Assembly: GCA_014904845.1 (NCBI GenBank)
Contig: MU119206.1
Coordinates: 186,001-250,000 of the forward strand
Length of the DNA stretch: 64,000 nt
Direction of reading: 5' to 3'
DNA from: Acephala macrosclerotiorum
Taxonomy: Eukaryota > Ascomycota > Leotiomycetes > Helotiales > Mollisiaceae
Position 1 is the stretch's first letter. Every line of letters begins with the position of its first letter. The notes beneath the pieces were generated by a model that worked only from the letters and a program-made list of their open reading frames with translations, searched no databases and was not told where the DNA came from. A program made the position numbers and the translations under genes. This document shows positions 34,384-37,543 of the stretch, in pieces.

Positions 34384-35206
34384 TTAAGCAGCAGCCTCGG
34401 CCTCGGCCTCTCTCTTATATGAGCCGTATTGTCCACTTAGAGGGAGTCAGTAATTGTCCGTCTTCATATATCTCGTGGTAAGTACTCACTAGCTACCATA
34501 TCCAGTCGACTCAGTCGGTGTAGCGCTGGGAGTCGCGCTCGTAGTAGTAGAAGGCTTAAAGCCATTACAAAGTCCATTGTTGCAAGTGTTAAAAGCACAC
34601 TGAGCGTCGCTCGAGCAGCTAGCTTGGAAGTTGCCACATCTGGTGATAAGCATGGAGTTCACAGCATAGCAGTTTGCACCACCAGCGCAGTCGGCTGAGG
34701 AGGAACATTGACCACCGAGAGCGACGGTTCCGGTCTGTGCTGGTGAGGTGGAGGTGGAGGAGGAGGTGGTGGTGGTGGTGGTTGATGTTGATACTACGGG
34801 GTAATTTTGATATGAGCCGTAGGAATCGCTGGAGATTGGGGGTTAGCCGTTGTTTATTCTAAAGGGGATTTATTTGCAAGAATATCGGTGAGAAGTGGCT
34901 TACTAGTTTCCGTAATCTTCCGGAGCCGGCTCAGGAGCAGCTTCACGTTTGTAAGATCCATAGCCTAGGTCTCAAAGTCAGCATTTTTGTTAATATTGTT
35001 CAAGCATTCGAGCTCAACTTACTTCCGTAGTTGCCATACCCTGTTGGTGCGGCACTTGGGGTAGTGCTCGTAGAGGTAGTTGATGGCTGGGGATAATCCT
35101 GGTAATCGCCATACGAACCATAGTTGCCATAGTCAGCTGGTGCCGGAGCAGCAGCGACGAAGCTTGCCGTGGCGGCAGCTAGGACAGTGAACTGAGAGAC
35201 ACGCAT
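34384..35206 (-). CDS. Secreted Kex2-processed repeat protein; candidate RiPP (dikaritin-type) precursor
   Basis: Four exons (35206-35023, 34964-34904, 34828-34490, 34435-34384) give 211 residues. A signal peptide (MRVSQFTVLAAATASFVAAAP) leads into two homologous modules. Module 1 has ADYGNYGSYGDYQDYP, a Ser/Thr linker, and TGYGNYGSYGSYKR. Module 2 has EDYGNYDSYGSYQNYP, a Ser/Thr linker, an 8-cysteine domain (spacing C5C5C10C6C5C4C), another linker, and TGYGSYGQYGSYKR. Each Lys-Arg is followed by Glu-Ala or Ala-Pro dipeptides (EAAPEP; EAEAEAAA), the layout cut by Kex2 and trimmed by Ste13-type peptidases. The YGSY motif occurs six times. In known dikaritins, Tyr-containing cores sit just before Lys-Arg, so YGSY tracts are plausible cores. 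The divergent neighbour is a UstYa-family gene, which supports this. Alternatives: a Tyr/Gly-rich wall protein or a Cys-rich effector. Confidence 0.85.
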
Positions 35207-36024
35207 TGCGAAAGTTGTTGAAATTGAAATGGGGGATATGCAGGAACAGTATTTTAGGATGTGCTGGGTGCTGATGAGTGATGGATGAGTTGATGATTCA
35301 ACCTTCTTTCGGGGAGATGCAATATATAATGAAATTGCAAACACAAGCTCCAAGCTATCAAAGAACAGTGACGTCCAAAAATGGCACCCGAGGCTCAGAT
35401 CGGCATTTGACAACTGTTTCTCCATCGTACCCAGCAATGAAACAATAGTGGGACCCAAGGCTGGCAACCGAAGTAGCGCTCATTTAATAGAATGCCAAGC
35501 CCGTATCTCTCATCTCTGGGAAACTTGGCATAGCATTCCGTACCCACGTCCACTTGCGTTGACCGAGATTTCCGGTTAGAAGCTCGAGGACGAAGGGACG
35601 GTAAGATCAGCACCATGCTACGTGACTTGGAAGCCGGCTTTGAGTAGCTTGACGGACATCATCTGGATGCTTGCTGCCTGCCCGAAATAGAGGGCTGTGA
35701 AATTTAAAGTTGTTGCGGAGTCTTCGCGTCTGCAGTCAACCCGTACGCTTGTCAAGCAAACAGCCCTCGACCTTGTCGATGATGCATGCTGAAAAGAGGA
35801 AATCAAGCTTAACGAGAACAAGGTTGGCTGATTGGAGCTCAAAGGCATCCCTTGATCAGTACCTTGCATGATAGGATCTGCTGAATGGCAAAGACCATAC
35901 ATAGCTGAAGGTGGTCATGGTAAGGTAGCATGGAGGTATGTCGTGCAGAGAAGCTGTGGCGATGTGTCAAGTTTGGTAGTGACGGCATTAACGGGTGCCC
36001 GGAATATTCCTATCTAGCGCTTTC

Positions 36025-36051
36025 AGGGTGTTTAGGGTGTTTAGGGTGTTC
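36025..36051. repeat. 9-bp tandem repeat, three copies
   Basis: Unit agggtgttt, with the third copy ending in c. It lies in the divergent promoter region about 600 bp upstream of the UstYa-like start codon. It resembles, but is not, the TTAGGG telomere repeat. Confidence 0.85.
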
Positions 36052-36448
36052 AGAGTCTCTGTGCTACGTCAGTCGCCAAAAACTTCTACGGGCGTTCCAT
36101 ACTACTACTAAGGAGGTTAAACCTCTGAGTCCGATGTCAACGTTGCTTCGGATGTTGATCTTGCCTCTAAATGTTTGACAACTCATCTTCCGTCGACAAG
36201 AGTCGCATTGTCAAGTGATATCAAAAACTTTCGTGACAATCAAATAAAGTTGTTCTATTTTTGTAAAATTGCGAACTGCGCCAATGAGATTTTGCATGGA
36301 AGGGATTCTTACATTATGCGGGTAAAGATCTCCTCGTATCGGCAACCATCCGATGTTTTCCCTAAACCCTGCAATTAGCCTCATATCAGCCACACGCTAT
36401 CATTCGTATTTACCTTGGCCGTTGTTCTTTGGTGCTGTTAAATGCTTC

Positions 36449-36476
36449 TACGGTTATCAATACGGTTATCAATACG
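36449..36476. repeat. 12-bp tandem repeat, two copies plus partial
   Basis: Unit tacggttatcaa, two perfect copies and a third partial tacg, about 175 bp upstream of the UstYa-like start codon. Its position suits a transcription factor site pair. Confidence 0.85.
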
Positions 36477-36648
36477 AGTGAAGTCTCACCGTACGTCATG
36501 CCAAGACAGAGAATTGTGAGATTTAGGGATGGACGCTGAGCCTCGGGACAATGCTTGATATTTGTCTTTTCCCTTTCCTTCTGTTCTAAGTTTGAGGTTC
36601 AAATTCGTTCATTCTCAAGTACTTCCAAACCGAACAGAAGTTATCACA

Positions 36649-37543
36649 ATGTCTTACGATCCTTTGCAAGACAAGCCTGAGCATGACTCTCAAAATGGAG
36701 AAGACTATGATCATCTCCTTCCGCAAGAAGAGTCCCTTCTGAGACGACCGCCTCGAATAATTCCAAGATGGATCTTCATAGTCGGAAGTCCGATCATTTC
36801 ACTCCTTCTCATCGGCTTCGGAGCATGGTTAGGAAGTCACTCGACATACAACTTCAACGCCAAATGCCTCGAACACGCTCAAAAGTGGTGTGAGTTCTTC
36901 AAGCCTCAACCACAGACAATGCACTAACAAAACCAAAGCTCCAATTCAAAGAGATGTGAATAACAATTACCACGAAGTCCTCTTCAACGGCTCCTTCATG
37001 AAACAAAATGCCTTCAGACTCGAAGCTAGCCCAGAAGTAGACGCGGCCTGGGACTCCCTCGGCATCAACTACCGCAGCATCAGAATCTCAACAGAAGACG
37101 CCGCACGAACCGGTCTCTCTCCCACACAAGTACAAATCAACCCCATCCACGGCGGCGGCTACCCCGCCAACGTCGAAGGCCTCCACCACCTGCACTGCCT
37201 AAACCTAGTCCGACAATCACTCTACTACAACATCGACTACTACCGCACCCAAGGCACCGGAGCATTCGTCAACGACGAACCGATTGTCCGACATCATGTA
37301 TCTCATTGCCTGGATATTGTGAGACAACAATTGATGTGTCAACCAGATACGGGGATGCTTGGGCAGGTGTGGTGGGATAAAGAGGAGCCGAAGGCGTTTG
37401 TGGATTTTAATACGAGACATCAGTGTAAGGATTTTGAGGGGATTAGGGCGTGGGCAGAGGAGAGGCAGATTGAGGAGGTGGTGCCAGGGGATTTTTTGAT
37501 GCCGCCGAGAAGTAGGGACAACGTGCTCGATGAGATTCCTTGA
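36649..37543 (+). CDS. UstYa family (DUF3328) protein, candidate peptide-cyclising oxidase
   Basis: UstYa proteins act in ustiloxin, asperipin, phomopsin and related pathways, where they catalyse oxidative macrocyclisation of Tyr-containing peptides made from Kex2-processed precursors. Two exons (36649-36889 and 36939-37543) with a 49-nt intron give 281 residues. A single N-terminal membrane helix (about residues 40-61, WIFIVGSPIISLLLIGFGAW) is followed by a lumenal domain. Both diagnostic metal-binding motifs are intact: HHLHC (163-167) and HVSHC (200-204), each HxxHC. The segment SPEVDAAWDSLG is also typical. The Ser codon at the intron (T/CT) matches the family's usual SPI continuation. 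It is divergent from the secreted YGSYKR protein gene 1.44 kb away, consistent with a precursor-enzyme pair. No second UstY, tyrosinase or peptidase gene is next to it. Confidence 0.9.

Follow-up and report, generated by a model that had tools for sequence, protein, structure and literature searches.

The closest described counterparts of the system reported here are fungal peptide pathways in which a precursor gene is accompanied by genes of the UstYa family (DUF3328); they are compared throughout from excerpts of the papers cited. In the asperipin-2a system of Aspergillus flavus (aprA, aprY, aprR and aprT) the Tyr residues are ether-linked, AprY is essential, a single UstY is needed and a tyrosinase is lacking (PMC6514808). 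The precursors of ustiloxin and phomopsin have signal-type N termini and Lys-Arg (KR) sites, with DUF3328 genes in the same clusters (PMC6514808, PMC7329392). DUF3328 enzymes carry an HxxHC(x)nHxxHC motif on paired helices, and one of them, CctR, is copper-dependent (PMC12435403). The UstYa substrates named in the excerpts of reviews are short toxin-like cores. Here we describe a pair of genes from Acephala macrosclerotiorum encoding a secreted-type precursor with Tyr-Gly-x (YG) ladders and a UstYa protein. The pair lies in a stretch of 64,000 nucleotides, hereafter the window (C5:186001-250000 of the 69.66-Mb assembly), whose own numbering is used unless a contig is named. The two genes are very probably functionally paired, and they probably make a modified secreted peptide jointly, because similar pairs recur in the genome and apparently in other fungi. 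The system is most likely a variant within the UstYa-precursor type, set apart by its unusual core and apparently widespread.

The precursor gene (211 amino acids; 34384..35206, minus strand) consists of four exons (35023-35206, 34904-34964, 34490-34828 and 34384-34435, stop included), and the UstYa gene (281 amino acids; 36649..37543, plus strand) of two (36649-36889 and 36939-37543, stop included). The genes are divergent, with 1,442 bp of intergenic DNA (35207..36648) between the start codons at 35206 and 36649. As reconstructed from the genomic sequence, the two encoded proteins show 100% identity over their full length with deposited ones, BDZ45DRAFT_683811 for the precursor (P0001) and BDZ45DRAFT_375658 for the UstYa (P0067). 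The initial annotation, which had described a secreted-type protein with two modules of Tyr/Gly, Lys-Arg and Glu-Ala, divergent at 1.44 kb from an intact UstYa with HHLHC and HVSHC, is thus borne out in these points. Its two-module description of the precursor also stands, but it had overlooked an 8-cysteine module (residues 114-171) within module 2.

The precursor begins with a signal-type N terminus, MRVSQFTVLAAATASFVAA, as judged by eye. Module 1 is composed of APAPADYGNYGSYGDYQDYP, a Ser/Thr/Pro linker and GYGNYGSYGSYKR, whereas module 2 starts with EAAPEPAPEDYGNYDSYGSYQNYP and ends with GYGSYGQYGSYKR, followed by EAEAEAAA and the stop codon. Each module terminates in a YGSYKR site, the first at 34946..34962 (C5:220946-220962), followed by EA, and the second at 34412..34428 (C5:220412-220428), both on the minus strand. 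The protein contains 11 YGxY and two YGSYKREA motifs; shuffles of its own letters gave at most three YGxY in 20,000 and YGSYKREA in none of 100,000. The spacing from one Tyr to the next equals three in 14 of 18 cases. Cleavage by Kex2 would yield two YG-containing fragments of about 47 and 133 residues. For the 47-residue fragment of module 1 (APAPAD...YGSY, with a presumed signal cut), a monoisotopic mass of 4867.03 Da is calculated in the unmodified state. The final intron has AAG at its 3' end, where CAG or TAG is usual, both in this gene (34436-34489) and in a sibling precursor gene on contig C29 (near C29:342554-342607), and in both it directly precedes the final YGSYKR tract.

The locus had been proposed to be dikaritin-type with YGSY cores. 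Kex2 KR sites do flank Tyr-containing repeats, as the two YGSYKREA motifs show, and the UstYa gene is linked to the precursor in a divergent arrangement that recurs elsewhere. Formal membership nevertheless does not hold, because the repeats are too few, the cores are long fragments of Tyr-Gly-x ladder rather than multiple short peptides, and no tailoring genes were found: neither tyrosinase nor peptidase occurs among the 43 other window open reading frames (ORFs) of at least 140 amino acids. With asperipin-2a the pair shares a precursor gene and a single UstYa-family enzyme; unlike it, the window has Tyr-Gly-x ladders in place of the hexapeptide core FYYTGY, and no reductase or transporter gene adjoins the pair as in that cluster. 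Ustiloxin and phomopsin differ further in their 16 or 8 short repeats and in a tyrosinase and further tailoring enzymes, none of which was found at the window. It is therefore highly improbable that short YGSY cores are cyclised here to a small, classical mycotoxin-like dikaritin with tailoring genes elsewhere. The KR-flanked Tyr tracts, the adjoining HxxHC...HxxHC UstYa and the need of asperipin-2a for only one UstY (PMC6514808) would fit such a product, whereas the presence of two modules only, the size of the fragments, the ladder repeats and the 0 of 43 window ORFs with a tyrosinase or peptidase speak against it.

The enzyme is a clear member of the DUF3328 family, scoring 196.4 bits with Pfam PF11807 against a cut-off of 25 and carrying both HxxHC motifs. 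The first, HHLHC (residues 163-167; 37184..37198, plus strand), lies in helix 160-185 of an AlphaFold2 model (mean predicted local distance difference test score 80.8), and the second, HVSHC (residues 200-204; 37295..37309, plus strand), in helix 194-213. Across 48 aligned proteins H163, H166, C167 and H200 are invariant, and H203 and C204 are conserved in at least 90%. The model also shows a single N-terminal helix at residues 40-64 (36766..36840, plus strand), predicted to span the membrane from its hydrophobic letters, as judged by eye. A search of PDB sequences with the A2 profile returned flagellin as its sole match (E 0.72), which was discarded, and a PDB fold search gave 39 matches at E 10 or better and none at 0.001. 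In its one predicted membrane helix and its HxxHC(x)nHxxHC on paired helices, the modelled protein resembles CctR (PMC12435403), by analogy with which it would be a copper-type enzyme. The substrate of CctR is a non-ribosomal cyclic peptide, while that of the window UstYa is presumed to be ribosomal.

The pairing is supported by its recurrence in the Acephala genome, for which all match counts are lower bounds. PF11807 gave 59 matches; joining neighbouring ones under a 400-bp rule chosen in this analysis left 45 loci. One region, G000:C331:46191-52859, holds several UstYa matches within 7 kb and is a possible biosynthetic cluster. The pattern YGxYKR occurs at 24 sites, all of which were read: four, in three genes, belong to YG-ladder proteins with a secretion-type start, namely the window gene, C29:342313 (81 amino acids) and C18:207411 (113 amino acids), and the other 20 include no secreted YG protein. 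The four sites lie 1.4-2.5 kb from a UstYa match, whereas the other 20 have none on their contig, and the precursor gene is divergent from the UstYa gene in three of three loci. Likewise, five of the 19 hits of YGxYxxYG fall in these same genes, and the remaining 14, when read, revealed no YG precursor. Sequence no farther than 2.5 kb from one of the 45 UstYa loci makes up 0.32% of the genome, a figure that is only a rough yardstick because the pattern was chosen after the window gene had been seen. The enzymes of the C29 and C18 loci are 60% and 51-55% identical to that of the window and every other match listed is at most 40% identical, so that the three precursor-linked proteins are the only members of their subfamily found in the genome. 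When 16 loci surrounding UstYa matches were scanned, 10 frames were flagged, with the C18 gene as the sole YG precursor; the intron-split C29 precursor falls below that frame filter and was found by pattern. Six UstYa regions were examined at 10 kb and the others at most as short loci. Among nine flanking ORFs scanned at the two sibling pairs, a multicopper oxidase adjoins the C29 pair (L043:1397-3109) and an M28 peptidase the C18 pair (L044:7201-8398). Since these neighbours are not shared among the loci, the recurrent unit seen consists of two genes.

This recurrence also bears on the possibility that the precursor is cut by Kex2 into an unmodified signalling or effector peptide, with the UstYa a mere linked neighbour. 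The Glu-Ala spacers of the precursor do resemble those of linear alpha-type pheromones, and UstYa genes are many (45 merged loci). However, linkage in three of three loci to one UstYa subfamily, and its counterpart in both comparable other species (below), makes this explanation improbable, and the precursor-enzyme pairing put forward in the initial annotation is well supported.

Relatives of both proteins were sought in other fungi. A profile built from eight YG precursors and scored over 7,996 candidates (7,981 in an earlier search) matched at least 51 proteins at E 1e-5 or better. All 51 listed have four or more YGxY, and 37 have Tyr-Lys/Arg-Arg; those with named species are from classes that we take to be Leotiomycetes, Eurotiomycetes, Dothideomycetes, Geoglossomycetes and Sordariomycetes. 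In P0218 (Aureobasidium melanogenum, partial), a YG-ladder N terminus is joined to a long unrelated-looking protein, perhaps through a mis-joined gene model. The UstYa search yielded 586 proteins at E 1e-20 or better, and the results given here are from the best 120 of these. Besides Acephala, two named species occur in both lists, Amylocarpus encephaloides and Endocarpon pusillum. Linkage in these was judged from contigs of equal size and, in Endocarpon, from locus tags: the Amylocarpus precursor and UstYa (P0060/P0092) are both on 72,057-bp contigs, and those of Endocarpon, GJ744_000526 (P0210) and GJ744_000525 (P0128), bear consecutive tags and are both on 107,020-bp contigs. Both comparable species are thus consistent with linkage of the pair. 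The comparison covered these two; precursors from Exophiala sideris, Glarea, Geoglossum, Cladosporium, Rachicladosporium, Aureobasidium, Fusarium, Zymoseptoria and Truncatella lay outside it.

In a tree of 57 proteins (53 from the best 120 of 586, the C18 and C29 enzymes and two outgroup pieces), the window UstYa falls in a Helotiales clade with Phialocephala and the powdery mildews Blumeria, Podosphaera, Golovinomyces and Erysiphe. Precursor-linked enzymes are scattered: those of the window and Amylocarpus lie in that larger clade, those of Endocarpon and C18 branch basally or nearly so, and that of C29 is placed, weakly, near Pseudogymnoascus. Because linked enzymes are spread over the subfamily tree, the pairing looks old. 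Stars mark no more than 24 of the 54 inner branches and the outgroup branch is very long, so that the claim is limited to linkage extending beyond a single young clade. Secondary-metabolite genes are few in powdery mildews. No YG precursor from them was found among the 51 or more profile matches, which may reflect unannotated short genes.

The ladder itself is a shared feature of the precursors. Over 53 of them (the 51 listed, C18 and C29), consecutive Tyr residues are spaced exactly three apart in 596 of 801 cases; in 477 of the 596, Gly follows directly on the first Tyr, and there are runs of up to eight Tyr, these counts being approximate because some metagenome rows look mis-spliced. With a period of three, a polyproline-II-like strand would present all its Tyr on a single face. 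Published surveys of Kex2-processed repeat proteins (KEPs), which are likewise secreted-type and cut at dibasic sites, require at least three repeats (PMC7329392, PMC6339444), whereas the number of YG modules is one or two in 45 of the 53 precursors and three or more in only eight; between Kex2 sites, the window and C18 precursors have two YG fragments each and that of C29 one. Such surveys would probably miss most YG precursors. This threshold would explain why no YG-ladder motif is named in the excerpts of the surveys, the conserved motifs given in that of PMC6339444 including no YGx ladder. DUF3328 genes are reported within 15 genes of 1,758 of 7,878 KEPs (22%; PMC7329392). In the literature searched (figures, supplements and subscription papers outside its scope), the strings YGSYKR, YGTYKR, YGAYKR, YGNYKR, YGSYGSYK and YGKYGSY do not occur, and no title or abstract start has a YG-ladder precursor as its subject.

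On balance, we favour a two-gene RiPP-like unit (ribosomally synthesized and post-translationally modified peptide) in which the UstYa would oxidise or cross-link Tyr ladders in the Golgi. The precursor would enter the secretory pathway and be cleaved by Kex2 after each YGSYKR, and the Glu-Ala/Pro spacers would perhaps be removed by Ste13-like trimming, for which XA or XP after Kex2 sites is the published signature (PMC6339444). By analogy with asperipin-2a and CctR, the presumably membrane-anchored, copper-type UstYa would then oxidise or link the Tyr side chains of the (Tyr-Gly-x)n ladders in the Golgi; that it acts oxidatively on the Tyr of this precursor we consider somewhat probable. The most likely links would join Tyr to Tyr three apart, or else connect Tyr with a nearby carbon of the backbone or of a side chain. 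The product would be a secreted Tyr-ladder peptide, one of the two large fragments in Acephala also containing the 8-cysteine module. A structural role is conceivable, though rather unlikely, in which UstYa prepares or cross-links the ladders for insolubilisation in the wall or extracellular matrix, with the 8-cysteine module as cargo or anchor, instead of yielding a small diffusible cyclic peptide. Long ladders of period three, Pro-rich or Ser/Thr-rich linkers, the occurrence of related enzymes across many orders, powdery mildews among them, ordinary neighbour genes and, at one locus, the multicopper oxidase adjoining the C29 pair would all suit this role. Yet that oxidase is not common to the sibling loci, and the KR and Glu-Ala signals point to released peptides.

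Several observations weigh against the proposed two-gene peptide system. Read backwards, both site patterns occur in the genome more often than read forwards (39 against 24 for YGxYKR and 30 against 19 for YGxYxxYG), so that the motif by itself is no evidence, and with 45 UstYa loci a single pairing alone would be unremarkable. Promoter words are no more shared among the three divergent regions than expected, 9- to 11-letter sharing being within about 1.3 standard deviations of a Markov expectation. Profile E-values for such Tyr/Gly-rich sequences may be inflated, and six of the 51 listed precursors had been in the profile itself; 14 of the 51 have no Tyr-Lys/Arg-Arg, and in three of these no dibasic site follows residue 18. 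In Endocarpon, the linked precursor ends in YGSYAR, without KR at the tract end, and Kex2 release there is therefore not universal. Most species among the best 120 of 586 UstYa proteins have no precursor match.

The 8-cysteine module (residues 114-171; 34561..34734, minus strand) sits in the Ser/Thr-rich linker of module 2 and holds all eight Cys of the precursor. It is EB-like, matching Pfam EB weakly (E 0.0058, 17.1 bits, below the cut-off of 24.3), and is up to 90% identical to modules in other fungal proteins, most of which consist of Cys modules and lack YG tracts. Among the other 50 YG precursors listed, none has six or more Cys, and those of C18 and C29 have none. The module is confined to one exon with Ser/Thr-rich stretches on either side, and for this reason recombination between linkers is its likely origin. 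It is related to a three-module gene on contig C218. There, a gene-like stretch (G000:C218:34107-34751) encodes three tandem 8-cysteine modules with no YG tracts seen; its first module has in-frame stops at positions occupied by Arg and Gln in relatives, the pattern expected of C-to-T mutation.

The surroundings of the pair in the window are ordinary. Stop-to-stop reading gave 45 ORFs of at least 140 amino acids, two of them the pair; the other 43 were scanned with Pfam, shorter exons being outside the scan. They match GPHR/ABA_GPCR, Paf67, VPS9, protein kinase, enoyl-CoA hydratase, short-chain dehydrogenase, CDH-cyt, lipase, MFS, Usp, DUF7137 and Methyltransf_28. In keeping with what had first been noted, no polyketide synthase, non-ribosomal peptide synthetase, tyrosinase or peptidase is among these 43; an MFS-type ORF lies about 19 kb from the pair and the Methyltransf_28 ORF, the sole methyltransferase-type match, about 22 kb. 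Just beyond the window end, about 28 kb from the pair, are two UstYa matches of another subfamily (C5:251474-254039). A larger cluster including them was considered and dropped, given their 31-34% identity and no frame flagged there.

More tentatively, the pair may represent an ancient system of filamentous ascomycetes in which a dedicated UstYa subfamily would turn (Tyr-Gly-x)n ladders into multiply cross-linked secreted rods, in which every Tyr would lie on one face of a helix with three residues per turn and which would act in development or at a surface, not as toxins; in Acephala the ladder would have captured a disulfide-rich module, a folded domain carried between cross-linked ladders. 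Tyr-ladder precursors appear to go with this UstYa subfamily both in an endophyte of the Helotiales and in a lichen-forming fungus, and the enzyme has relatives in powdery mildews. The two-gene system is small enough for direct tests of DUF3328 chemistry. If the proposal is true, a family of precursors goes unseen in surveys that set a minimum repeat number, and fungi would seem to use the oxidative modification of ribosomal peptides for something basic in their lives as well.

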